Shown here piece by piece: positions 2,174-16,257 of a DNA stretch of 17,838 nt. The number at the start of each line of letters is the position of its first letter. The stretch's first letter is position 1. Origin of the DNA: an uncultured Devosia sp. (GTDB taxonomy: Bacteria; Pseudomonadota; Alphaproteobacteria; Rhizobiales; Devosiaceae); the NCBI RefSeq assembly GCF_946479885.1, contig NZ_CAMLHM010000070.1, forward strand, positions 1 to 17,838, given 5' to 3'. The position numbers and the translations under genes were made by a program. The notes below the pieces were generated by a model. That model had not been told where the DNA came from. It searched no databases and saw nothing but the letters and a program-made list of their open reading frames with translations.

Positions 2174-5100
2174 ATGGCGAAGAACCCGACCCCCCAAAAC
2201 GATCCCGCCGCGCTGGCCTTCTCAGCCGTCGAAGACGCCCTCAAGGAATCGGTATTTAGCCTCGACAGCACGCCGCAGCAGGCGCCCGAACGCCGCCCGT
2301 CTGAGAATATCCGCTCGGAGCGCCTGCGCGCCGCCGACAAGATTGCCCAGCAGGCCGGCAGTGTCGCCAATGACGACCGCTTCCCCACCTCCAAGATTCT
2401 CTACAACCTGCAGAACCGCTCTTCGTCCGCGCCCACCTGGATCGCGCTCGTGCTCTCGGTGGTGTGGATCGCCGTTGCGGGTGCCGTCGCCTGGCTGCGT
2501 TATGGCTCGCAGATGGGCAATTTCGCCAGCTTCGTCGGCACCATTGATTTCATCGGCCTCGTCGCCATCCTGTTCCTGCCGGTCCTCGGCTTTTTTGCCG
2601 TAGCCACCCTGTTCCGTCGCGCGCAGGACCTGCGCAACGCCGCTTCCTCGATCACCCAGGCCGCCATCCGCCTGGCTGAACCCGAAGTGACGGCCGCCGA
2701 CAAGGTGGCCTCGGTCGGCCAGGCCGTGCGCCGCGAAGTCAACGCGCTTGGCGATGGGCTGGAACGCGCCTTGTCGCGCGCCGGCGAGCTCGAAGTGATG
2801 ATCCACAACGAGGTCACCGCCCTCGAGCGTACCTATTCGGACAATGAATCGCGCATGCGCGCGCTGATCGCCGAACTGGCAAGCCAGCGTGAAAGCGTGC
2901 TCACCAATACCGAGCGCGTGCGTGAAGCGATCACCGAAAGCCATACCGGCCTCGTCTTCGACCTCGACATGATCAGCCAGCGCATCGCCGGCACCATCGT
3001 CGAAAGCGGCGGCAATCTGACCCGTGCGCTCGAGACCGCCGGCAACACGCTGACCAACACGTTCGGCGAGCGCACCGAGAACTTCGTTTCTCTCGTGGAC
3101 AACCGGACCACCGATTTCATCTCCTCGCTCGACAACAGTGCCAATCGCCTGGCTTTGACCTTTGAAGACCAGACCGGCGCCATGTCCAATGCGCTTGATG
3201 CGCGCGCCGCTGACCTCAATGCTGGCGTCGAGAGCCGCATCGCCAAGCTGACCGATGCGCTCGATGCCCATTCAACCTCGATCGGCAACGCCATCGACTC
3301 GCGCACCCACCTGATCGAAGAGCGGACCGCCGCCCTCACCGGCTCGCTCGAAGAGCGGACGGTGTCGATCACGGGCCTCCTGGAATCGCGCACCGGCGAA
3401 CTGACTTCGGCGCTCGACGAACGCACTGCTGCCCTCTCGACCCTGCTGACCGATGGCGGCGCGTCCCTGCTCGAGCAGCTGCGCGAACGCGGCCACCAGG
3501 TCACCGGCGGCCTCGACATGATCGGCCAGCGCATTGCCGAGGACATTTCCGCCCGCTCGCGCGAGGCCGAGGTGCTGCTCAACGCGCTGACCCGCCAGCT
3601 CGACGAGTCGGTCTCCATCCAGCTCAATGCCATGGATAGCCGCCTGCAGTCGGCGGTGATCGAGATCAATGGCGCCCTGGACGACACGTCCGAACGTGCC
3701 CGCATCACCCTGGCGACGGCCGGGCAGGATTCGCTGAGCCAGTTCGACGCCCGCCTCAACGAAATTGCCGCCATTCTCGATACGCGCCTGCATACGCTGG
3801 ACAATGTCATCGGCGACAAGGGCGACAGCCTGATCGAGCGCCTCGACGCCCAGGGCACGAGCTTTGCCGCCCGCGCCAATGTGCTGGAAATGGCGCTCAA
3901 CGAAGAATCGGGCCGCTTCAACGACGTGGTGGCTGAACGCACCCGCGAAATGGGCGAAGTGCTCGGCGCCCGCACCAAGGCCATCACCGAGAGCCTGACC
4001 AACCGCACCCGCGAAATCTCGGATTCGCTGGAAGGTCATGCCGGGGTCATCGCCGAAGCGCTCGACGGCCGGACCAAGACCATCGACGATATCCTGGCCG
4101 CCCGCACGAACGAACTGGGCAGCACTATCGAAACCCGGGCGCTCGAACTCGACGAGACCCTGGCCAACCGCAGCCGCGACATGGGCGAAGCCATCCGCGT
4201 TCGCAGCCAGGAGCTGGGCGAGACCCTGACCGGCAGCACCAGCGCCTTCGACCAGGCCATTGCCGGCCGCACGCAACGCCTCGCCGACACCCTGTCGGAA
4301 AAGACCACCGCACTGTCGCTGGAACTGGACAGCCGCACCGGCACCCTGACCAGCCAGCTCGACGAGCGCACCGAAGCGCTGGTGACCCAGCTCACGGACC
4401 GCACGACCACGCTGACCAGCGAGTTCGACAGCCGCACCACCGAGCTGCGCGGCGCCCTCGATACCGGCACCCAGCAACTGGCCCAGGCCGTCGGCACGCG
4501 CACCCAGCAGCTGTCCGAAGCCCTCGGCACCCGCACCCAGGCGCTCAGCGATACGCTGGCGACCCACACGACCTCGATCGGCGAAACCATCGGCCTGCGG
4601 ACGGCCGAACTGGCCGAGACCATCTCCCAGCAGGGCGAGGAAGCCCGCACCAAGATCGACGGCTCGCTGCGCCTTGCCACCGATACGATGGGCGAGCGCG
4701 TCGGCAGCATGTCGACGCTGATCGCCGACAAGGTCAACGAGCTCAACAACAATCTCGGCCACGGCCTGGACAATGCCATTGCCCGCATCTCCGATGCCGA
4801 GCATGGCGTCACCGCGCGTATCGACCACGCCAGCGCCACCGTTGGCGAGAGCGCCCGCCGCGCCGCCGAACTCATCGAGACGGGCGTCAACTCCGCCCGC
4901 CAAGCCATCAGCGACATGGTCGACCAGCGCCTGGGCACCCTGCCCGAGGCCATCACCGCCCGCGCCGACATTACGGCCGAGCGCCTGGCCGCGCTCAATG
5001 CCACGATCAATACCTCGATCACCCAGTCGATGGCCGATCTCGAAGCCGGTGCCGATCGCATCGAGGAAACCATCGCCACCCGCATCACGGCGGCGACCCA

Positions 5101-7432
5101 GAACATCTCGACCGATATCACCAATACCGCCAACCGCATGGACAGCGCCGTGCGCACCGCGCTCGAGCAGATCCGCGTGGCTGCCGGCGATATCGACCAG
5201 TTGCTCACGGTCAAGGCCGTGGACGCGGTGGACACGATCGAGACCCGCCTCAGCGGCATCAACCGCTCGGTGGAACAGCACACCAACGCCTTCGCGGCCC
5301 TGGTGAACGAGAAATCGGACCAGCTGCAGGGCGCCCTGGCCAGCCACGGCAACCTGCTGCGCGACGCCCTGGGCGAGAATGCCCGCGAAGCCGAGGCCAT
5401 CATGGCCGTATCGACCTCGCGCATCCTCACCGATGTTACCGCGGCCCTGGGCAAGCTCAACGACAGCAACCTGCTGCTGCAGCGCGTGCTGGATGCCTCG
5501 ACGGCCAACCTCGCCAACCTCGAGACATCAGTCGCCCAGCAGACCTCGACCTACTCGACCACCGTCCGCGAGGCCATCGGCCAGACCGAACAGGCCGGCG
5601 CCATGGTCAGCCAGCATGTCGGCGCGCTCCAGGCCACGATCCGTGGCATGGTCGACGAGTTCTCGACCGTGCTCGGCCGGCTCGATGCCGAAGCTGCCAA
5701 CATGTCCCAGGCCTCGACGGCCCTGGCGCTCACCAGCGACGATGCCCTGCAGACGCTCGAAGATCGCCGCAGCGCCATGGACGCGCTGGCCCAGAGCTTT
5801 GCCTCGCGCGCCGATGATATCGACGGCCGCATGCGCCTCTTCGCGCAGTCGATCGCCGATACGGTCAATGACACGGAACGCCGCCTGATCGGCGCCCGCC
5901 GCGCCATGGACGACGCCCTGACGGCCACGACAGGCACCGTGGTGCAGACGCTGGAGCAGACCACCGGCACCATCACCGGGGCCATCCAGGCATCGACGCA
6001 GGACGTCACCGACGCGCTCTACGCCACCAACGAGCGCTTCACCTCGACGCTGTCGTCCAATGCCGGCCAGGTCGACAACGCCGTGCAGCGCGCCGCCGAG
6101 GCGGCCGCAGCCGCGCTCAACCAGACCGCTTCGTCGGTCCGGATGGCGCTCAGCGACCAGGCCAACCAGGTCAACAACGCCCTCGAGGACAATGCCAACA
6201 AGGTCAGCGACGTGCTGGCTGCCACCGCCGGCAACGTCACCGACGTGCTCAACACCACCACATCAACGCTGGCCGACACGATCAGCGACAGCTCGGTTTC
6301 GGTGCGCAACGCCATCGCCTCCAATGCCGGCCAGCTGCGCAACGCCATCGACCAGACCACCGGCACGTTCCGCCAGGCGCTGGACGAAACCTCGGGCGAA
6401 GTCACCAACCGCCTGGGCGAGTTCCGTGGCGCCGCCGACGCCGAAGGCCGCCGCGCCAATGCAGCACTGCAGCAGGCCCAGCAGATGATGGTCGTCGAAA
6501 TGCAGCGCGCCATCGAAGAGGCAACCCAGCGCTTCAACGATACCGCTCGCGCCATGCGCGAAACGGCACGTGAAGTGGGCACCGAGCTCGAAGCCACCCG
6601 CGCCGAACTGGCGCGCGGCGTCAACGAGCTGCCCGAGGAGACCCGCGCCAGCGCCGCCGCCATGCGCCGCGTCGTGGCCGAGCAGATCGAGGCGCTCAGC
6701 GAACTCAACGCCATCGTGCGCAGCCAGCCGGCTACGCACGACCTCAACGACCGCCGCCCGCCACGCCCTGCCCCGCGCGCCGAGCCCCGCAACGAGCCGC
6801 CGGCCTACCAGCCGCCGCGCCAGCCCGAGCCCGTCCGCGAAACCTACCGCGACGCCCCGGCTCGCCAGGCAACGACGCTGGTCGACCCGATCCGTCCGAG
6901 CGAACCGGTGCGCCGTGCCGAGCAGCCAGTGCGCCAGCCCGAGCCTGTGCGCCAGCCGGAGCCGGTGCGTCAGCCCGAGCCCCAGCCGGTCGCCGAGGCC
7001 GAGCCCGAAGCGCCCGCCCCTGCCGAGAATGGCGGTTGGCTGCGCGACGTGCTGCGCAATGCCACGGCCAAGCAGCAGAGCGCCCAGCCGCAGCAGACCG
7101 GGCTTTCGGGCCTGACCGAGGAAATCGCCAACGCCATCGACGATGGTGCCCTGGCCGATGCCTGGGCCCGCTACCAGGCCGGCGAATCCAACGTGTTCTC
7201 GCGCCGCATCTATACCCTGGCCGGCCAGGGCACTTACGACGACGTGCGCAAGAAGCTGCAGCGCGAGCCCGAATTCGCCCGCACCGCGCAGGCCTATATG
7301 AGCGAGTTCGAACAGCTGCTGAAGCGCGCCGCCGCCGGCGCCCATCCGGCCGCCGAGACCCGCGAATACCTGCTGAGCGACCGCGGCAAGGTCTATACGA
7401 CCCTGGCCCATGCCAGCGGCCGGCTGAACTGA
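2174..7432 (+). CDS. gpr: Giant apolipoprotein-like membrane protein, probable growth pole ring protein (GPR/RgsE-like)
   Basis: A 1752-residue protein. The order is a cytoplasmic N-terminus (1-86), two membrane segments (about 88-108 and 126-147), and then more than 1300 residues of predicted amphipathic helix. A Pro/Arg/Glu-rich linker follows (about 1517-1619), then a conserved-looking alpha-helical C-terminal domain (about 1620-1752, containing DAWARYQAGE). Within the helix, three arrays keep an exact 11-residue register (300-427, 589-819, 1251-1415), the periodicity of apolipoprotein helices. This layout matches the Agrobacterium growth pole ring protein and Sinorhizobium RgsE, very large membrane proteins that form a ring at the growing pole in Hyphomicrobiales. 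That identity is by architecture from memory, not by alignment. A GTG at 2105 would add 23 Cys/Arg-rich residues. I chose the ATG at 2174, whose Shine-Dalgarno is weak (GCGAGAG about 9 bases upstream). It is followed by a strong terminator and is divergent from hpt. Confidence 0.8.
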   Translation: MAKNPTPQNDPAALAFSAVEDALKESVFSLDSTPQQAPERRPSENIRSERLRAADKIAQQAGSVANDDRFPTSKILYNLQNRSSSAPTWIALVLSVVWIAVAGAVAWLRYGSQMGNFASFVGTIDFIGLVAILFLPVLGFFAVATLFRRAQDLRNAASSITQAAIRLAEPEVTAADKVASVGQAVRREVNALGDGLERALSRAGELEVMIHNEVTALERTYSDNESRMRALIAELASQRESVLTNTERVREAITESHTGLVFDLDMISQRIAGTIVESGGNLTRALETAGNTLTNTFGERTENFVSLVDNRTTDFISSLDNSANRLALTFEDQTGAMSNALDARAADLNAGVESRIAKLTDALDAHSTSIGNAIDSRTHLIEERTAALTGSLEERTVSITGLLESRTGELTSALDERTAALSTLLTDGGASLLEQLRERGHQVTGGLDMIGQRIAEDISARSREAEVLLNALTRQLDESVSIQLNAMDSRLQSAVIEINGALDDTSERARITLATAGQDSLSQFDARLNEIAAILDTRLHTLDNVIGDKGDSLIERLDAQGTSFAARANVLEMALNEESGRFNDVVAERTREMGEVLGARTKAITESLTNRTREISDSLEGHAGVIAEALDGRTKTIDDILAARTNELGSTIETRALELDETLANRSRDMGEAIRVRSQELGETLTGSTSAFDQAIAGRTQRLADTLSEKTTALSLELDSRTGTLTSQLDERTEALVTQLTDRTTTLTSEFDSRTTELRGALDTGTQQLAQAVGTRTQQLSEALGTRTQALSDTLATHTTSIGETIGLRTAELAETISQQGEEARTKIDGSLRLATDTMGERVGSMSTLIADKVNELNNNLGHGLDNAIARISDAEHGVTARIDHASATVGESARRAAELIETGVNSARQAISDMVDQRLGTLPEAITARADITAERLAALNATINTSITQSMADLEAGADRIEETIATRITAATQNISTDITNTANRMDSAVRTALEQIRVAAGDIDQLLTVKAVDAVDTIETRLSGINRSVEQHTNAFAALVNEKSDQLQGALASHGNLLRDALGENAREAEAIMAVSTSRILTDVTAALGKLNDSNLLLQRVLDASTANLANLETSVAQQTSTYSTTVREAIGQTEQAGAMVSQHVGALQATIRGMVDEFSTVLGRLDAEAANMSQASTALALTSDDALQTLEDRRSAMDALAQSFASRADDIDGRMRLFAQSIADTVNDTERRLIGARRAMDDALTATTGTVVQTLEQTTGTITGAIQASTQDVTDALYATNERFTSTLSSNAGQVDNAVQRAAEAAAAALNQTASSVRMALSDQANQVNNALEDNANKVSDVLAATAGNVTDVLNTTTSTLADTISDSSVSVRNAIASNAGQLRNAIDQTTGTFRQALDETSGEVTNRLGEFRGAADAEGRRANAALQQAQQMMVVEMQRAIEEATQRFNDTARAMRETAREVGTELEATRAELARGVNELPEETRASAAAMRRVVAEQIEALSELNAIVRSQPATHDLNDRRPPRPAPRAEPRNEPPAYQPPRQPEPVRETYRDAPARQATTLVDPIRPSEPVRRAEQPVRQPEPVRQPEPVRQPEPQPVAEAEPEAPAPAENGGWLRDVLRNATAKQQSAQPQQTGLSGLTEEIANAIDDGALADAWARYQAGESNVFSRRIYTLAGQGTYDDVRKKLQREPEFARTAQAYMSEFEQLLKRAAAGAHPAAETREYLLSDRGKVYTTLAHASGRLN
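2963..3538 (+). repeat. Duplicated LDMI(S/G)QRIA motif in the giant gene (2963-2989 and 3512-3538)
   Basis: Two 27-bp coding segments differ at only two bases and encode LDMISQRIA (residues 264-272) and LDMIGQRIA (residues 447-455). The first lies about 27 residues before the first 11-mer array. The second lies about 20 residues after that array ends. This suggests an older, larger duplication in which a cap or hinge motif flanks a block of 11-mers. Only the two endpoints are repeat units. The interval between them is ordinary coding sequence. Confidence 0.75.
3071..3454 (+). repeat. 11-residue repeat array 1 in the giant protein
   Basis: Eleven full 11-residue units plus one 7-residue unit, in continuous register (protein residues 300-427). 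Consensus is R-T-x-x-L-x-x-x-L-[DE]-x, for example RTAALTGSLEE, RTVSITGLLES, RTGELTSALDE. The short unit RTHLIEE lacks four residues, which would shift the helical face by about one turn. The DNA copies are diverged, so conservation acts on the protein. Confidence 0.9.
3938..4630 (+). repeat. 11-residue repeat array 2 in the giant protein (21 units)
   Basis: Twenty-one contiguous 33-bp units with no insertion or deletion (protein residues 589-819). They run from RTREMGEVLGA to RTAELAETISQ. The consensus is R-T-x-x-L-x-x-x-L-x-x. Position 1 is Arg in most units, position 2 is Thr, and positions 5 and 9 are hydrophobic. Eleven residues in three turns is the apolipoprotein/alpha-synuclein type of amphipathic helix and differs from a heptad coiled coil. 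Confidence 0.93.
5924..6418 (+). repeat. 11-residue repeat array 3 in the giant protein (15 units, variant consensus)
   Basis: Fifteen contiguous 33-bp units (protein residues 1251-1415), from ATTGTVVQTLE to ETSGEVTNRLG. The register is the same as in arrays 1 and 2, but the consensus has changed to x-[TN]-x-x-x-[VLF]-x-x-[AT]-[LI]-x. The leading Arg is nearly absent and Asn/Gln are frequent. The polar face is thus less charged than in array 2, which suggests a different partner or membrane affinity. Confidence 0.9.
6929..6982 (+). repeat. Three tandem 18-bp VRQPEP repeats in the Pro-rich linker
   Basis: Three near-identical 18-bp units at 6929-6946, 6947-6964 and 6965-6982 encode VRQPEP three times. 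They sit in a roughly 100-residue Pro/Arg/Glu-rich linker between the helical rod and the C-terminal domain. The high DNA identity indicates a recent slippage expansion, so copy number probably varies among strains. Confidence 0.88.
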
Positions 7433-8082: not shown

Positions 8083-9285
8083 TCACCCCGCGGCGACCGC
8101 GTCGTCCTTGGGTTGCATCATCTTCAGCGATAGCCAGATGCACAAGGCGCCGATGGCGGCGGCCAGCGCGGCGAACAGGAAGGCATGCGCGCCATAGAGG
8201 CCAATGAGCCAGCCGAAGCCGACCAGCGCCACCACCGAGGCAACCTGTTGCAGCACGGTGAACAGGCTCTGCGTTTCGGCCGCGATGTCCTCGCTGGTCC
8301 AGTTGGCGATGAAATGCACGCAGCCGAGATAGCCAAGGGCATAGGTGACGCCGTGGGTGAGCTGCAGCAGGAGTAGCACCCAGACTGGCGGCGAGAACGC
8401 CATCGCGGCCCAGCGCAGCACCGAGACGAGCGCCGAAATCAGGATCATGTGGCGGGCCGAGACCCGCCCGCCGAAGCGCTTCCAGATGAACATCATGCCC
8501 GCTTCGGCTGCAGCACCCAGCGCAATCAGCGGGCCGATAATGTCTTCGGAAATGCCCTGCTCTTTCCACAGCAGCGAGGCAAAGGCGTTGAGGATGATAT
8601 GGGTGCCGAAGATGATGGCAAAGCCGACCAGCGGCAGGAAGAACCACGGCTTGGTGATGATCTCCATCAGCTTGCCGGCGCTGGGACGAACGGCCGCCAC
8701 CGTCGCCTGATCGTGCGGCGCCCGGAAGGCCGGCAATTGCAAAGCAAGCGCCGCGCGCAGCAAGGTGAGGCCGACAAAGAGCGGCACGAAGATAGCGGAG
8801 CCGAACCACACCACGAGGAACCCGGTGACGCCGTTGAACAGCATGAAGCCCACCGTGCCCCAGGCCCGGATGGTGCCGAAATCGCTGCCGTTGCGCCGCG
8901 TCATGCGCATGGTGGCGGCGTCGAGCACCGGGCCGATGGCACCGGCCGGCATGGCCGCCAGCGTCCACAGCAGCAGGATGCCCCAGAACTCGTTGACGAA
9001 GAACAGCCCGATCGGGACGATGCCGGCGATCAGCGCGCCGATGACGATGGCCTGCCGCCAGTCGCTGGCGCGATCGGCCAGCCGCCCGACGACCAGATTG
9101 AGCGCCAGGATGACGAAGACCGGGACGGCATTGATGATGCCGATCTGCTCGGTGGAGATGCCCTTCTCGCTCAGCCAGATGGGCAGGAACATCGTGGCCG
9201 CACCCGGCGCCATGAAGAAGGTGAAGTAGAAGGCGGTAGTGCGGAATTCCGGCGTCAGGCGCGACCGCGCCAGGGTGAGCGACAT
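8083..9285 (-). CDS. MFS transporter, HcaT/MFS_1-like (copy 1)
   Basis: A 400-residue inner-membrane protein with about 12 predicted helices. It resembles the phenylpropionate permease (HcaT)/nucleoside:H+ symporter branch of the major facilitator superfamily. Supporting motifs are FGTIRAWGTVGF in the N-half, the G-R-L-A-D-R loop after TM2, and a C-half LLQLTHGVTYALGYLGCVHF segment like the L-H-A-x-T-F-G motif of HcaT. I chose the ATG at 9285 because its MSLTLARSRLTPEFR start aligns with the neighbour's MSAVFSRLDTPELR. A TTG at 9327 would add 14 residues that the neighbour's start does not support. There is no clear Shine-Dalgarno before 9285, only TATATTTTTC. It lies 92 bp downstream of its paralogue and 2 bp upstream of the frameshifted hydrolase. 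The substrate is unknown. Confidence 0.88.
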   Translation of the reverse strand: MSLTLARSRLTPEFRTTAFYFTFFMAPGAATMFLPIWLSEKGISTEQIGIINAVPVFVILALNLVVGRLADRASDWRQAIVIGALIAGIVPIGLFFVNEFWGILLLWTLAAMPAGAIGPVLDAATMRMTRRNGSDFGTIRAWGTVGFMLFNGVTGFLVVWFGSAIFVPLFVGLTLLRAALALQLPAFRAPHDQATVAAVRPSAGKLMEIITKPWFFLPLVGFAIIFGTHIILNAFASLLWKEQGISEDIIGPLIALGAAAEAGMMFIWKRFGGRVSARHMILISALVSVLRWAAMAFSPPVWVLLLLQLTHGVTYALGYLGCVHFIANWTSEDIAAETQSLFTVLQQVASVVALVGFGWLIGLYGAHAFLFAALAAAIGALCIWLSLKMMQPKDDAVAAG

Positions 9286-9377
9286 GAAAAATATACTCGG
9301 AGCACTGGGCCGGCGCGGCCGCGGCAAATCAGGATAGCGCTAATACACGGCAGTCCATATCGGTTTCACCGCCCCCG

Positions 9378-10574
9378 TCAATGCGCCTCCTTGGGCGGGC
9401 GGATGCGCAGGGAGACGAGGACGCAGACGATGGCCGCGGAGGCCGTGATGGTGGAATAGAAGAAGGCATAGGAGCCGAAATGCTCCACCAGTACGCCGAA
9501 GACGATCAGGGCCAGCATCGAGGCGCCCATATTGAGCATGTTGGCAAAGCCCTGGGCCTCGGCGGCATTGGCCTCGTTGGTCCAGTTGGCGATGAAATGC
9601 ACCACGCCGAAATAGCCCATGCCGAAGCTGAAGGCGTGCAGCATCTGCGTGAGGAACAGGATCTCCACCGGCGGGTTGAAAGCCATGATGGTGAAACGCA
9701 AGAGGCCCGCCACGGCGCAGACCAGGATCATGTTGCGCGCGGTGACGCGACCCCCGAAGCGGCGCCAGGCGAACATCAGGATCGCCTCGCCGGTGGCGGC
9801 AATGCCGAGCAGCGGGCCGAGGAAATAGCTTGGAATGCCGTTCTCGTGCCAGAGCAGGGCGGCAAAGCCGCCGATCAGCGCATTGCTGGAATTGACGAGC
9901 GAAAAGGCCAGCAGCGGCAGCACGAACCAGAGTTGCAGCGAGTCACGCAGCCGGCTCGGCGTGGCGGGGTTGCCAGTGGGCATATTGGCCAGGGTTGCCT
10001 CTGGCGCCGGCGCCCGGAAGCGCGGCAGGATGAAGGCGATGGCGGCGCGCAGCACGACGGTCGCCACGTAAAGGCCGACAAACACCCCCGAACCCAGCAC
10101 ATTGAGCAGAAGACCCAGGCCGGCGGCGGCAACGACATAGCCCACGGTGGCCCAGGCGCGGACGGCGCCGAAATCGGTACCGTTGCGCCGCGTCATGCGC
10201 ACGCTGGCCGCGTCGATGATGGGGGCGACCAGGCCATTGCTGGTGGCGGTCAGCGCCCACACGGCCAGGATGCCCCAGAATTCGGAGACCAGGAACAGCG
10301 GCAGCGGCGCCAGCGCCGAGAGCAGCGAAATGACGATCAGCGCCGTGCGCCAGTCATCGGCCTTGTCGGCAATGCGGCCCACGATGATGTTGAGCAGCAG
10401 CAGGCACAGGGTCGGCAGGGCGTTGATGATGCCGATCTGGTCGGCCGGCAGGCCATGCTCGCTGAGCCAGATGCCCAGGAAAACCGAGGCGACGCCGCCG
10501 GGCACATAGACCATGAACTGATAAATGGACGCACGCAGCTCGGGCGTGTCCAAGCGCGAAAAAACCGCCGACAT
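9378..10574 (-). CDS. MFS transporter, HcaT/MFS_1-like (copy 2)
   Basis: A 398-residue, roughly 12-helix transporter, paralogous to the downstream gene. Both share IWLSE-G-x-x-x-[DE]-QIGIIN, then VGR-[IL]-AD, MTRRNG-[ST]-DFG-x-[IV]-RAW-[AG]-TVG, FGGRV-[TS]-AR and VHFIANWT. The open frame reaches 10763, but the extra 63 residues are Arg-rich and unconserved. The ATG at 10574 has GGAG nine bases upstream, so I used that. Tandem MFS paralogues may transport related substrates or be redundant. Sequence does not tell which. It follows the Agt-like gene by 85 bp on the same strand. I see no terminator between them, so co-transcription from the agt promoter is possible. Confidence 0.9.
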   Translation of the reverse strand: MSAVFSRLDTPELRASIYQFMVYVPGGVASVFLGIWLSEHGLPADQIGIINALPTLCLLLLNIIVGRIADKADDWRTALIVISLLSALAPLPLFLVSEFWGILAVWALTATSNGLVAPIIDAASVRMTRRNGTDFGAVRAWATVGYVVAAAGLGLLLNVLGSGVFVGLYVATVVLRAAIAFILPRFRAPAPEATLANMPTGNPATPSRLRDSLQLWFVLPLLAFSLVNSSNALIGGFAALLWHENGIPSYFLGPLLGIAATGEAILMFAWRRFGGRVTARNMILVCAVAGLLRFTIMAFNPPVEILFLTQMLHAFSFGMGYFGVVHFIANWTNEANAAEAQGFANMLNMGASMLALIVFGVLVEHFGSYAFFYSTITASAAIVCVLVSLRIRPPKEAH

Positions 10575-10659
10575 GAAAGGCAACTCCGGGCGAATACAGC
10601 CCAGGGCCTTCCTGAATCGAATCGACGGCCAATACAAGGGCCGATTTGCAACGTTACTG

Positions 10660-11721
10660 TTACGCGATTGCGGCCAATGCGCCCACAGCCGGTCGCAACG
10701 GCTCGAGCGCGGCAAGGAATTGGGCCGCGCTGGCCTGCCAGGTGAACTTTTCGCCATGCGCACGCGCGTCGGCCCGACTGAGGGTGAGCGCCCGGGTCAC
10801 GGCCACATTGAGATCGACGTCCAGCGCGCCGGCTCTGGCATCGTTCAGCACATCGCGGGGCCCGGTGACGGGATAGGCGGCAACCGGCGTGCCCGAAGCC
10901 AGGGCCTCGGTGATGACATTGCCGAAGGTGTCGGTGCGGCTGGGAAAGACCAGCACATCGGCGCTGCGATAGGCCTCGCCCAGTTCCTCGCCATGGCGAT
11001 AGCCGAGGAACACCGCCTCGGGATGGTCGCGCATCAGCCGGGCGCGGTCGGGACCATCGCCCACCACGATCTTGGTGCCAGGGACCTTGAGATCGAGGAA
11101 CGCCTCAATGTTCTTCTCGGCGGCGACGCGGCCGACATGCAGCAGGTGCGGGCCGGGCAGATCATGAAACAGCGTCTTCTGACCGGGGCGGAAGCGGGCG
11201 CCGTCGACGCCCCTGCCCCACAGCGTCAGCCGGTCAAAGCCACGCGCCAGCAGGTCGTCGCGCAGCGACGGTGTCGGCACCATGGTGCGGGCGGCGGCGC
11301 CGTGGAACCAGCGCAGGTAGCCGTAGCTCCAGTCCTGCGGGATCGGCATCCGCATGGACAGGTATTCGGCAAAGCGGGTGTGGAAGCTGGTGGTGAAGGC
11401 CAGGTGCCGGTCCAGGCAATATTGCCGCGCCAGCAGGCCCAGCGGCCCTTCGGTGGCGATGTGGATGTGGTCGGCACCGATCGCATCGATCTGCGTCGCG
11501 ACGGCCCCGCCGCTCGCCAGCGACAGCCGGATCTCCGGATAGGTCGGCACCGGCAGGGTCCAGAATTTCTCGGGCGTCAGGTAATGCACCTCATGCCCGT
11601 CTGCCGTCAGCGTCTTGCCGACGCTTTCGAGGGTGCGGACGACGCCGTTGATCTGCGGCCGCCAGGCATCGGTGACGATGAGGATGCGGCGGGAGTGGTT
11701 TCGGTCGAGGGGATGGGACAC
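10660..11721 (-). CDS. agt: GT4 glycosyltransferase, probable Agt-type diacylglycerol glycosyltransferase
   Basis: A 353-residue GT-B fold enzyme. The N-lobe begins RRILIVTDAWRPQINGVVRT, with the Gly-Val-Val acceptor-side loop of MgtA/Agt enzymes. HIHIATEGPLG (85-95) and SFHTRF with candidate catalytic His114 follow. The C-lobe has HVGRVAAEKN (195-204), GDGPDR (221-226) and the nucleotide-sugar site TDTFGNVITEALASGTPV, where the usual first Glu of E-x7-E is Asp264 and the second is Glu272. The start is GTG at 11721; no better start is near, and its Shine-Dalgarno is weak. In Agrobacterium and marine alphaproteobacteria, Agt glycosylates diacylglycerol to glyco- or glucuronosyl lipids under phosphate starvation. 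It is paired there with PlcP, as here. The assignment rests on motifs plus that pairing. A GDP-mannose-dependent mannosyltransferase is the alternative. Confidence 0.8.
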   Translation of the reverse strand: MSHPLDRNHSRRILIVTDAWRPQINGVVRTLESVGKTLTADGHEVHYLTPEKFWTLPVPTYPEIRLSLASGGAVATQIDAIGADHIHIATEGPLGLLARQYCLDRHLAFTTSFHTRFAEYLSMRMPIPQDWSYGYLRWFHGAAARTMVPTPSLRDDLLARGFDRLTLWGRGVDGARFRPGQKTLFHDLPGPHLLHVGRVAAEKNIEAFLDLKVPGTKIVVGDGPDRARLMRDHPEAVFLGYRHGEELGEAYRSADVLVFPSRTDTFGNVITEALASGTPVAAYPVTGPRDVLNDARAGALDVDLNVAVTRALTLSRADARAHGEKFTWQASAAQFLAALEPLRPAVGALAAIA

Positions 11722-11791
11722 GGCAACACCACCACGGGTTTGAGTGTCCAGTTAAGGTCGTCCGAATCCACGTCGCTGGTGTGAACAACAT

Positions 11792-11809
11792 GTGACGGGT
11801 GGGTGACGG
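11792..11809 (-). promoter_or_regulatory. Candidate PHO box upstream of agt
   Basis: On the minus strand, CCGTCAC-CCAC-CCGTCAC is a perfect 7-bp direct repeat with a 4-bp spacer and an 11-bp period. That is exactly the geometry of the PhoB box (CTGTCAT-N4-CTGTCAT). Each half matches the consensus at five of seven bases, including the GTCA core. The box ends 70 bp before the agt start. It would link agt to phosphate starvation. No equivalent was found upstream of plcP. Confidence 0.5.
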
Positions 11810-11813
11810 CCTT

Positions 11814-11941
11814 ACCTCTCCCTCTGGGGGAGAGGTCGACCCATCTTTGGGTCGGGTGAGGGGGCCTTGCCCACGTTCCGCACCCAGTAAAGGCCCCCTC
11901 ACCCGGCGCTGCGCGCCGACCTCTCCCCCAAAGGGAGAGGT
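11814..11941. repeat. REP-like palindromic element B, between plcP and agt
   Basis: A 128-bp compound palindrome. The outer hairpins are ACCTCTCCC-N5-GGGAGAGGT at 11814-11836 and again at 11919-11941. Inside are GACCCA-TCTT-TGGGTC (11838-11853), a 16-bp perfect inverted pair (11853-11868 with 11890-11905), and CGGCGC-TGC-GCGCCG (11904-11918). The whole could fold as a cruciform or multi-branched RNA. It begins 5 bases after the plcP stop codon and ends 4 bp from the candidate PHO box of agt. Confidence 0.9.
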
Positions 11942-11946
11942 GAAGG

Positions 11947-12744
11947 TTATCCCGCGGCCCGGCGCAGGCGGAACTTGCGAGGTTCGCCGGCGACCATTTC
12001 GGTCCACTTGATCAGCTCGAACGCGCCGTCGGCATTCTCGACGATGGCGGTGCAGCTCTCCACCCAGTCGCCGGTATTGATGTAGTGGATGCCGTAGCGA
12101 TCATGCATGTCGGCAAAATGGATATGCCCGCAAATGACGCCGTCGACGCCCGATTCCTTGGCCTCGTGCACCAGGGCTTCCTCGAAGCGGCCGATGACGG
12201 ACACGGCATTCTTGACCTTCTGCTTGGCCCAGGCGCTCAGCGACCAATATTGCAGGCCCAGGCGGCGGCGCACCCAGTTGATGGCGATATTGACGCGCAA
12301 GGCGGCGTTGTAGGCCCAGTCGCCGACATGGGCGAGCCACTTGGCATTCATCACCACCACGTCGAACTGGTCGCCGTGGATGACGAGATAGGTCTTGCCC
12401 GATGCCGAGGTATGCACGGTCCGGTCGACGAACTCGACCTCGCCGAAATAGGTGCCGAGATATTCGCGCAGGAACTCGTCGTGGTTGCCCGGCAGGTAGA
12501 CCACGCGCGTGCCGGCATTGGCCTTGTCGAGCAGGATCTGCACCAGGATGTTGTACTCGGCCGGCCAGTGCCAGGATTTGGCCAGCCGCCAGCCATCGAG
12601 GATATCGCCGACCAGATAGATCGTCTCGGCATCGTGGGAGCGCAGGAACTCGATGAGCTGCCCTGTTCGGATCGGCTTCATGCCCAGATGCACATCCGAA
12701 ATGAATATGGCGCGGACCTGTCGGACTTCGCGGTCATCCGTCAT
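11947..12744 (-). CDS. plcP: LpxH-like metallophosphoesterase, probable phospholipase C PlcP
   Basis: A 265-residue calcineurin-like phosphoesterase. All metal-site motifs are present: SDVHLG (16-21), GDILDGW (46-52), GNHDE (86-90), HGDQFD (123-128) and GHIH (206-209). The protein belongs to the group usually annotated as UDP-2,3-diacylglucosamine diphosphatase. Alphaproteobacteria generally use the unrelated LpxI for that lipid A step. The Sinorhizobium relative is PlcP, which cleaves phosphatidylcholine to diacylglycerol when phosphate is limiting. The adjacent Agt-like glycosyltransferase, which would use that diacylglycerol, supports PlcP here. No signal peptide is visible, so it is probably cytoplasmic and membrane-peripheral. 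The start ATG at 12744 has AGGAG 11 bases upstream. A true LpxH role cannot be excluded from sequence alone. Confidence 0.82.
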   Translation of the reverse strand: MTDDREVRQVRAIFISDVHLGMKPIRTGQLIEFLRSHDAETIYLVGDILDGWRLAKSWHWPAEYNILVQILLDKANAGTRVVYLPGNHDEFLREYLGTYFGEVEFVDRTVHTSASGKTYLVIHGDQFDVVVMNAKWLAHVGDWAYNAALRVNIAINWVRRRLGLQYWSLSAWAKQKVKNAVSVIGRFEEALVHEAKESGVDGVICGHIHFADMHDRYGIHYINTGDWVESCTAIVENADGAFELIKWTEMVAGEPRKFRLRRAAG

Positions 12745-14292: not shown

Positions 14293-16253
14293 ATGACACA
14301 CGATGATCATCAAGGTGACGGCGTCGGGCTCGGGCTGACCGTGCAAGCGGTGGCACTACTGGCCTTCATCGGGCTGGCGCTTGGCATCACCATCATCGCG
14401 ATCGGCATCGCCCTGTTCTCGGAGCCAGAGCGCCTGCGCTCCGAACTCATCGTCAACGTCATCCAGGTGCTGCTCATCGCCATGGCGGTTTCCGGGGTGT
14501 TTGCCTGGCTCAACCGCGCCAATACGGATCTGTTGGCGAGGGGCTTCAAGCACCTTCTGTCGATCCAGCGCGCGGCCGTCGGCTCATTCGCAATCGCCAG
14601 CGCAGCGACCGTGGCCATCCTGATTTTTGTCGCCCTGTCCGCAATGTTCGCCACCGAAGTCGAGCACGGCCTCTATCTGCTGCGGGCGATCGAGTTTCTG
14701 CTCAAGCTCGCGGCCATCAGCGCCATCATCGTGCTCATCACCATGCGCCGTCCGGCGCAGACCGTGGTGGTCCCAGCCAATCCGGCCGCCCCGGCCGTCG
14801 TGGAGGAGCCGGAACAGGGCCGGTTGGAATTCGGCAGCTTGACCTTTGCATTCGGGCTGGTGGTCATTGCCGGCCTGGTCGTGCCGACCGATGACCTGAT
14901 GCGGCTGGCGAACATGTTCTTTGGTGGCGACAAGAAGGTCGAGGATTATCTGCCCCAGCGCAGTGTGGTGACTGTCGAAGATGGTCTGAGCGAAGCAATG
15001 GTCGACGCCATCGAGGACATGCCCTGGCTGAGCGCCGAACTTGCAGTATTGAGCAGCCAGGACCGGAACGAGGTCGCGTTGGGGATGCAGGCGCAGATTG
15101 AAAGCGTGCTCTACGGCGTCGAGGTCGAAAATGCCAAACGCGTCGGCGCCTGGCCGCTGTTGGAGGCGATTTGCTACGGGCGCCATGACACGATGATCTT
15201 CGCCAACTCCGACAACAAGGTCCTCGCCGAGCACCTGGCCTATCTGTCGGTAGAAGGTCTGGTCGAATATCCCTATGGCGACGTCAATGCCATCGAGTTG
15301 ACCCGCCATGGGGCTCTCGCCATGTCCAAGTATCTCGACAAGAACTCGCTGCCTGCCTGTGATTTGCCGGAGCCCCTGCAGGACGACCCCACCAGCACAG
15401 GCACGACGGCTTCTCCGGCGATCATCGCGCGGGTCGATCGCATCGACCCCACCCAGGTCGACCAGACGATCAGCGGGCTCTCAAGCCTGCAGGAAATCGA
15501 AATAGCGAGCGGCGCAATATTCCGGCTTTCGCTGTCGCCTGGCAATTACCGGGCGAGCCTTCAGGCCATCGGTTCGGTGGACCCGTTCCTGCAATTGTTC
15601 GACGCCAATGGCGAATTGGTCGACGAGAATGACGACGGTGGCTTTACCGGAGCGTTCGACTCCGAACTGCGCTTCACCATCGTGCCGGGCGGGAAGTATT
15701 ACCTGCGCGCGTCCAGCTATGACGGTCGCCAGGGCATTGCCCGACTGATGGTGCAAGACGCCGCCATCGAGATCGACCCGACCGTCGATTTCTCGGCCCA
15801 GCAAATTGCCCGGCAGGTTCCGGCCACTCCATTGGGCGAGATCGCCGTTGTCCCGCCCGACGGAGCGGCATTCTCCTACCAGGCCACAGAGACGGGCGAG
15901 CACACATTCGCGTTCGCGCCGGAATCAGGCAGCGATCAAACCGGAATTGACCTGGTGGGTGTGCTGTTTCGCCTCGATGGCGATCGGCTGACGGAAATCG
16001 CCAGTGACGATGACGGTGGCGCCAATGGCCTATTCCCGCTGGTCACGGCTCCGCTCGAAGCGGGCAATGACTACATCCTGGTGCTCAAGCACTTTGAAAG
16101 CCTGCTGGCGTCGCAAACGTCGGTCATTGTGACGATCACCACCCCGAGCGGGTCGTCCAACGGCCTGCCAGCCGACGATGTCGGGTCGGTGGAGGTCACC
16201 GACCCGGCGCAAGCTGAACCAGAGGCGCCGGTGGCGCCTCCGACAGTGCTGCC

Positions 16254-16257
<4 letters not shown>
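14293..16257 (+). CDS. Uncharacterised five-helix membrane protein with two PPC-like periplasmic domains
   Basis: A 654-residue protein that I do not recognise as a named gene. Five membrane segments (about 17-42, 53-72, 96-119, 128-150, 183-197) have Arg/Lys-rich loops after helices 2 and 4. By the positive-inside rule the N-terminus is cytoplasmic and residues 198-654 periplasmic. Residues 225-350 are alpha-helical, and [16 protein letters not shown], then ELTRHG resembles a winged-helix-like end. Residues 405-488 and 525-616 are two beta-rich repeats. Each has a [24 protein letters not shown] strand/turn (DENDDGG 444-450, SDDDGG 571-576) and a Y-x-[IL]-x-[VAL] strand, like bacterial pre-peptidase C-terminal (PPC) domains; the Asp clusters could bind calcium. 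The C-terminus is a Pro/Ala/Glu-rich tail. It has a strong ribosome site and a hairpin-rich upstream region. A sensory or cell-envelope adhesion role is possible but unsupported. Confidence 0.85.
16222..16240. other. Perfect hairpin at the convergent gene ends
   Basis: GAGGCGCC-GGT-GGCGCCTC is an 8-bp perfect stem with a 3-base loop, inside the last codons of the membrane-protein gene and 15 bases before its stop. No T-run follows on either strand. It may slow or end transcription between the convergent genes, but it is not a canonical intrinsic terminator. Confidence 0.45.

Follow-up and report, generated by a model that had tools for sequence, protein, structure and literature searches.

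A probable hendecad coiled-coil rod in the Devosia orthologue of the polar growth protein GPR/RgsE

The stretch of DNA analysed here (the window; 17,838 nucleotides from an uncultured Devosia sp.) carries a gpr/rgsE-type gene at positions 2174-7432 of the + strand. Its product of 1752 amino acids, counted from the ATG at 2174, is established by sequence comparison as the Devosia orthologue of Sinorhizobium meliloti RgsE and Agrobacterium GPR. We propose, with a probability of roughly 0.65, that the rod part of this orthologue of a polar-growth organiser is a long, nearly straight hendecad coiled coil that joins chains to one another and for which contact with lipid would be unnecessary. Earlier work had already described this protein family, its role at the pole and its match to PF01442. 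In the literature searched, outside which a 2023 survey of hendecad families lies, we found no description for this family of a hendecad rod, of the 7/11 rule for its breaks or of length evolution by multiples of 11; likewise, PMC8262873 contains none of the terms repeat, 11-residue, 11-mer, undecad, 11 amino or heptad.

Orthology, architecture and gene neighbourhood

Homologues share the start at ATG 2174; an in-frame GTG upstream, at 2105, is a possible alternative. By tblastn, residues 65-1752 of the window protein match the RgsE-type locus of S. meliloti 4H41 (L073; 2094 residues from the start chosen here), to which the direct family comparison was made, with Agrobacterium GPR being compared by its published description. 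The N-terminal residues 1-280 gave one strong match per genome in six of six genomes, with an additional weak match in S. meliloti (8e-4), and were matched in 290 of 297 genomes sampled across the order, one of which had two matches. Identity to L073 amounts to 92 of 203 aligned columns in the N-terminal region and 66 of 156 in the C-terminal domain, and orthologous sequence runs through the N-terminal region, the rod and the C-terminal domain. Thus, the first-pass annotation was right to guess a GPR/RgsE homologue. The nearest locus among the best 80 genome matches, which represent 75 loci (L001-L075), is that of a Devosia MAG (94%, L031). In a protein homologue search, the 7987 candidates sharing most words were scored and the best 120 of 142 were listed; the majority of relatives listed are without any name, one from Devosia sp. 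Root635 is named 'apolipoprotein A1/A4/E domain-containing protein', and one from a Hyphomicrobiales MAG carries the name 'Kinesin-like protein'.

RgsE is SMc00190 of S. meliloti, reported at 2,089 amino acids (PMC7327166), and GPR is Atu1348 of Agrobacterium tumefaciens, with 2,115. A polar ring and a role in unipolar growth have been published for Agrobacterium and S. meliloti (PMC8262873, PMC7327166), and the reported partners of RgsE are RgsA, RgsS and TolQ (PMC7327166). The window protein is shorter than both, at 1752 residues, but like them it has two predicted N-terminal membrane segments, a giant helical middle with PF01442 matches and a conserved C-terminal domain. The two hydrophobic, predicted transmembrane segments (residues 83-111 and 115-150; 2420-2623 on the + strand, as are all features of this gene) were located by 19-residue hydropathy windows scoring at least 1.6, and two N-terminal hydropathy peaks are likewise found in RgsE (L073) and in L035, L041 and L053. 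The middle part, published for GPR/RgsE as apolipoprotein-like, is here read as a probable hendecad rod (residues 175-1511; 2696-6706), in which a hidden Markov model (HMM) and periodicity analysis follow a single 11-residue track with 14 heptad-type breaks. The rod is followed by a linker recognised by its composition as proline-rich (residues 1519-1620, 6728-7033; 27 Pro in 102 residues) and by the C-terminal domain (residues 1621-1752, 7034-7429). About 130 residues long, this domain shows conservation from Devosia through to Sinorhizobium, but was without a Pfam family in our scan, in which PF01442 was the sole family matched in the window protein at E <= 0.001.

Head-to-head with gpr lies an Hpt-domain gene (1421-1867, - strand; Pfam PF01627, 3.8e-07). 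Such a gene is present on the opposite strand within 2.5 kb upstream of gpr in 68 of the 75 loci from the best 80 matches, and three of the seven loci without it are gene fragments with fewer than 250 bases upstream. The phospho-accepting His is kept in 58 of 69 aligned Hpt rows, the window included, is replaced in 10 and falls in a gap in one, so the gene is sometimes retained without this residue. On the - strand, 8083-12744 holds two adjacent MFS transporter genes of the same family, then genes for a GT4 glycosyltransferase and an LpxH-like phosphoesterase; among the same 75 loci, MFS and LpxH-like matches recur in 41 each, and an adjoining GH3 gene in 29. A gene at 14293-16257 (+ strand) encodes 654 residues that include a bacterial pre-peptidase C-terminal domain; its product is matched in only one of these loci (L031, 39%), some of which end before this point, and the gene is perhaps a recent arrival.

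An 11-residue track broken by whole heptads

The first-pass annotation had described three in-register arrays of 11-residue units between positions 3071 and 6418, which are residues 300 and 1415 of the reading frame from ATG 2174. When the protein is laid out with 11 residues per line, array 1 (residues 300-427; 3071-3454) consists of seven units (300-376), the 7-residue unit RTHLIEE (377-383; 3302-3322) and four further units (384-427), and array 2 (residues 589-819; 3938-4630), recovered by layout and HMM alike, consists of 21 units, so that register and counts hold for both. Array 3 (residues about 1247-1415; 5912-6418) also keeps its register to about residue 1415, but the 15 units counted earlier become a 14-unit insert when the distances between anchors are used (402 - 248 = 154 residues). 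Identity at lag 11 is 0.18 over residues 181-1420, against 0.085 expected; within residues 861-1290, none of the lags up to 60 stands out.

The Fourier signal expected at a period of exactly 11 was present in arrays 2 and 3 (z 8.5 and 5.4) but not in array 1 (z 0.0) or in residues 210-1430 as a whole (z -0.2; 200 shuffles each); array 1 lacks it because the 7-residue unit splits its phase. At 3.667 residues per turn, arrays 1, 2 and 3 reach z 15.0, 18.0 and 10.4, respectively (200 shuffles), and the stretches between them, which keep the helical component alone, reach 9.3 and 7.1. For residues 210-1430 overall, z is 32 at 3.667 residues per turn versus 0.6 at 3.5 (200 shuffles), and a heptad coiled coil as the main period is therefore rejected. 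The period is 11/3 rather than 7/2, and eleven residues in three turns do make one continuous apolar face, as had been surmised.

An HMM with 11 cyclic states, for which array 2 was the starting point and 69 non-redundant homologues the training set, decoded residues 175-1511 as one track; one shuffled copy yielded 31 residues. The three arrays are simply the cleanest parts of this longer track. Positions 5 and 9 of the model are occupied by ILVMF in 83% and 94% of cases, small residues (Thr, Ala, Gly, Ser) predominate at position 2, Arg, Lys or His fills position 1 in 38%, and the remaining columns are polar and acidic. We take position 2 to be the a position of a hendecad, with d at 5 and h at 9. 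Hendecad coiled coils have a 3-4-4 spacing with a, d and h in the core (PMC9858780), and the rod columns show this apolar pattern together with whole-heptad phase changes; the column pattern is found in human apolipoprotein A-IV (apoA-IV) too. Residues 210-1430 contain one proline and 20 aromatic residues, with 11 Lys against 98 Arg and a net charge of -73; the full track (residues 175-1511) has two prolines and a net charge of -79.

All 14 phase changes in the window track, and all 21 in RgsE, correspond to one to three whole heptads in the HMM decoding. Across the 69 homologues, 828 of 890 phase changes were of heptad type and 62 were not, although these are not independent events because the homologues are related; where at least four units stood on either side, 146 of 147 were of heptad type. 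The decoder recovered simulated random phase changes evenly and reported none in sequences that lacked them; the heptad preference is thus not a decoding artefact. The earlier suggestion that the repeats could do without heptad coiled coils is weakened by the breaks, which are whole heptads, as in the grammar of a mixed hendecad/heptad coiled coil. By HMM, the break-free stretch around array 2 covers residues 566-955, or 35.5 units. The number of residues per turn has a median of 3.640 in 183 proteins and is 3.645 in the window protein, close to the value of 3.63 quoted for the undistorted helix (PMC9858780).

This grammar also bears on RTHLIEE, which had been suggested to act as a hinge that rotates the apolar face. 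By layout, HMM and comparison with relatives it is a single heptad; it rotates the face by no more than some 33 degrees (4 x 98.18 - 360), and 8 of 21 other Devosia-lineage proteins have a heptad break at the corresponding place. A hinge role is disfavoured both by the heptad grammar and by this recurrence. In RgsE and in L041, a protein from Rhizobium, this part of the chain also contains a heptad break, at a different distance from the RREV motif, and a heptad somewhere in this part may matter.

The PF01442 match and the apolipoprotein comparison

PF01442 matches the window protein in seven stretches (E = 8.8e-51; 172.8 bits against a curated cut-off of 90), and a profile search against solved structures matched apoA-IV chains at 2e-21; a search of solved structures with the single sequence gave no match at 1e-3. 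GPR and RgsE have been called apolipoprotein-like from PF01442 (PMC8262873, PMC7327166), and the label given to GPR draws in addition on its BLAST match with human apoA-IV (PMC8262873). Such matches favour the alternative published for GPR and adopted in the first-pass annotation, namely that the 11-residue helices rest on the membrane lipid of the pole or sort it. Published deletions of the apolipoprotein-like parts of GPR damage function (PMC8262873), which has been counted in favour of lipid binding and fits a coiled-coil rod equally. A membrane-lying amphipathic helix would need a continuous apolar face as well, and the case for a coiled coil is drawn from the periodicity of the sequence.

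We examined what the PF01442 match reflects by taking residues 566-955 (390 residues) and permuting them within their 11 columns, one column at a time, a procedure that keeps the make-up of the columns and loses the order of the units. Nine native or altered sequences were scored, including one heptad-dealt copy of two. The column-scrambled copies scored 109.0, 83.7 and 94.1 bits, compared with 95.2 for native residues 566-955 and the cut-off of 90. Copies that kept the two core columns alone scored 23.4 and 50.0 bits, and neither the one heptad-dealt copy tested nor two full shuffles gave any match to PF01442. Because column-scrambled copies score as the native sequence does, the match represents a period-11 column pattern and is not by itself evidence of ancestry or of lipid binding.

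A 198-residue stretch of apoA-IV was used as a control. The hendecad HMM decoded all of it without a break, and its two apolar columns of the 11 are 0.94 and 1.00 apolar, compared with 1.00 and 1.00 in array 2 of the window protein. The lipid-binding score D was calculated with a HeliQuest-type formula, its thresholds (upper, 1.34) and its hydrophobicity scale. In this test, which is a weak one, none of 1320 rod windows had D >= 1.34 (44 were grey and the maximum was 1.33), and only three of 181 apoA-IV windows reached the threshold, 29 being grey; mean scores, on the same weak test, were -0.03 for the rod and 0.29 for apoA-IV. Since human apoA-IV shares the narrow apolar seam and mostly stays below the lipid-binding threshold as well, neither property separates the two readings, and both were dropped or downgraded as arguments against an apolipoprotein-like role. 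The control therefore lowered our estimate for the hendecad rod from about 0.70 to about 0.65 and raised that for lipid binding from improbable to unlikely.

Four arguments for the rod survive this control: its charge, its near lack of proline, its heptad-type breaks and the scrambling test. The window rod resembles apolipoproteins A-I, A-IV and E in its 11-residue periodicity, in the same two-column apolar seam and in a PF01442 score above the curated cut-off, but it is far more acidic (net charge -79 over 1337 residues, compared with -3 over 198 in apoA-IV), has almost no proline (two, compared with seven in the apoA-IV stretch) and is interrupted by whole heptads, none of which was decoded in apoA-IV. 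The scarcity of Lys relative to Arg in residues 210-1430 also argues against lipid contact. Membrane binding by analogy to apolipoproteins is thus weakened, in that column make-up explains the match and the rod is acidic, even though apoA-IV shares the seam and the low score. We favour the hendecad rod over a membrane-lying helix on account of the grammar of its breaks and indels, its scarcity of proline and its net charge (-73 in residues 210-1430).

Rod length, rival folds and biological meaning

Motif spacings were compared in 19 of 25 proteins listed; left out were four in which motifs are missing (L035, L053, L041 and L073), L021, in which they are partly missing, and L019, in which the position of LNDSN is doubtful. 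Two regions of the rod vary most. One is the stretch before the GTLPE motif, where the spacing from RREV to GTLPE ranges between 493 and 1135 residues. The other is array 3, a Thr/Asn/Gln-rich insert that in 13 proteins brings the spacing to 248 + 11n residues (n = 4 to 19); in the other six of the 19 the spacing is exactly 248 residues and the array has no unit at all. The window protein has array 3, and L073 is not among the proteins scored. Between the two variable regions lies a central block (residues 921-1246; 4934-5911) that by HMM and motif spacing is richer in heptads and nearly fixed in length: GTLPE and LNDSNLLLQ are 174 residues apart in 15 of the 19 proteins, 200 in three and 394 in one. 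From its sequence, this block is a candidate docking site.

Array 3 had been said to exchange the Arg of the other arrays for Asn/Gln-rich units. It is indeed rich in Asn and Gln (27 of 169 residues, versus 15 of 231 in array 2), but Thr takes the place of the Arg most often (7 of 14 units; Asn in three, Ser in two, Ala and Gln in one each). The further suggestion that the change between arrays separates a membrane-binding part from a partner-binding part finds no support, as the three arrays resemble one another in charge and in lipid-binding score, and 6 of 19 proteins have no array 3; this absence also leads us to reject array 3 as a universal partner-binding part.

Length change was followed in a set of 196 sequences, of which 183 counted as full length and 157 of these had motif-anchored lengths. 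Sixty-four disjoint pairs were formed, of which seven were dropped for a missing rod end motif; the 57 used are more than 55% identical in the rod. Rod indels no more than five columns from an end were left uncounted, and in the C-terminal part end gaps were counted. Exact multiples of 11 residues made up 85 of 106 indels in the rod and 3 of 184 behind it, and 97 of the 106 rod indels were 0, 4 or 7 modulo 11. Within 62,588 rod residues, 9 of 106 indels fell outside this grammar, whereas behind the rod 162 of 184 did so within 13,779 residues, a contrast indicative of selection on register. In an alignment-free comparison, the difference in rod length was a multiple of 11 for 28 of the 41 pairs whose rods are unequal (p = 4e-20), and behind the rod this was so for 4 of 49 pairs.

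The excess of multiples of 11 is partly mutational, with tandem duplication contributing: for 45 of the 85 such inserts, no in-phase unit is a better match than the neighbouring one. This observation would suit a pattern that is a mere relic of 33-base slippage, free of structural constraint, an explanation that we nonetheless hold to be very improbable. The 33-base DNA repeats are degenerate, with a single array of 2.6 copies at 79% identity scoring at least 50; slippage of 33 bases does not produce the whole heptads that make up the old breaks; and the scarcity of out-of-grammar indels in the rod relative to the residues behind it speaks against an absence of constraint.

Fully extended and helical, the rod would be about 199 nm long at 0.1485 nm per residue, and that of RgsE 246 nm. 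An alpha-helix rises by 0.15 nm per residue, so that 1,700 residues would span about 255 nm. The GPR paper instead assigns 600 nm to 1,700 helical residues and argues from this that the chain has to be folded, a view that its authors also base on foci 50 nm wide (PMC8262873). In a rival reading of this kind, a single chain would make an antiparallel helical bundle, and thus a compact focus, in place of an extended rod of several chains. Designed helical bundles are among the profile matches (4uos at 3e-7 and 4tql at 5e-5), and apoA-IV, which shares the apolar seam, has been portrayed as one long helix, part of which lies in a three-helix bundle (PMC8262873). We hold folding back to be unlikely. 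Opposed to it are the single proline in residues 210-1430 and the gapless track, which offer no obvious turn, and the conflict between the 600 nm behind the published argument and an alpha-helix; moreover, we would expect a unit gained in one strand of a fixed bundle to require a matching gain in another.

If the extended rod is correct, the two N-terminal segments would fix the N-terminus at the inner membrane, and the 1337-residue rod would extend from there through the cytoplasm of the growing pole, or along the pole. The apolar seam would pair GPR chains with one another and so join them into the ring, while the rod would hold the C-terminal domain and the central docking block at set positions, facing partners. 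The small residues at position 2 would suit tight packing of a few chains, as has been argued for Ala in Scy and FilP of Streptomyces (PMC9858780). Tandem gain or loss of whole units would alter rod length quickly, and selection would remove changes that break the seam.

Compared by description, Streptomyces Scy may work alike. It is called a polarity protein (PMC3718342) and has a hendecad rod of more than 1000 residues, nearly all of them in hendecads (PMC9858780). Scy and FilP, which are DivIVA-related, have a DivIVA-like N-terminal motif (PMC9858780), whereas the window protein has the two predicted membrane segments instead; no DivIVA-like N-terminal motif was found in it by Pfam at E <= 0.001. 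A weak match links the window protein to ZorA of the Zorya anti-phage motor (NCBIfam 2.4e-08, under the cut-off; PDB chain 8vvn, 3.8e-08). It covers the ZorA tail alone, which is built by bundling five chains (PMC11890865). We set this match aside as homology, given that the composition bias for 8vvn (45.7) exceeds its score (34.3).

A bolder idea, which we regard as improbable, is that the rod is an evolvable spacer whose number of units sets a distance in the growth-pole ring and thereby tunes pole geometry between species. It draws on the coincidence that the extended helical length of about 255 nm is of the order of the Agrobacterium growth-pole ring, reported at 200 nm in diameter; among 21 Devosia-lineage proteins, the fully extended rod would measure about 178-262 nm. 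If the spacer reading is true, it would be a solution independent of that in Streptomyces Scy.

The published model for assembly of the GPR/RgsE ring leans on apolipoprotein similarity. If that similarity is the 11-residue pattern alone, the hypothesis of a lipid organiser loses its main sequence support. The rod model would predict instead that changes of 11 or 7 residues are tolerated and changes of 5 or 6 are not, and length variants found in nature could help to show what determines the size of the ring. The same caution would apply to other bacterial proteins with PF01442, 237 of 293 of which are reported from the Rhizobiales (PMC8262873).
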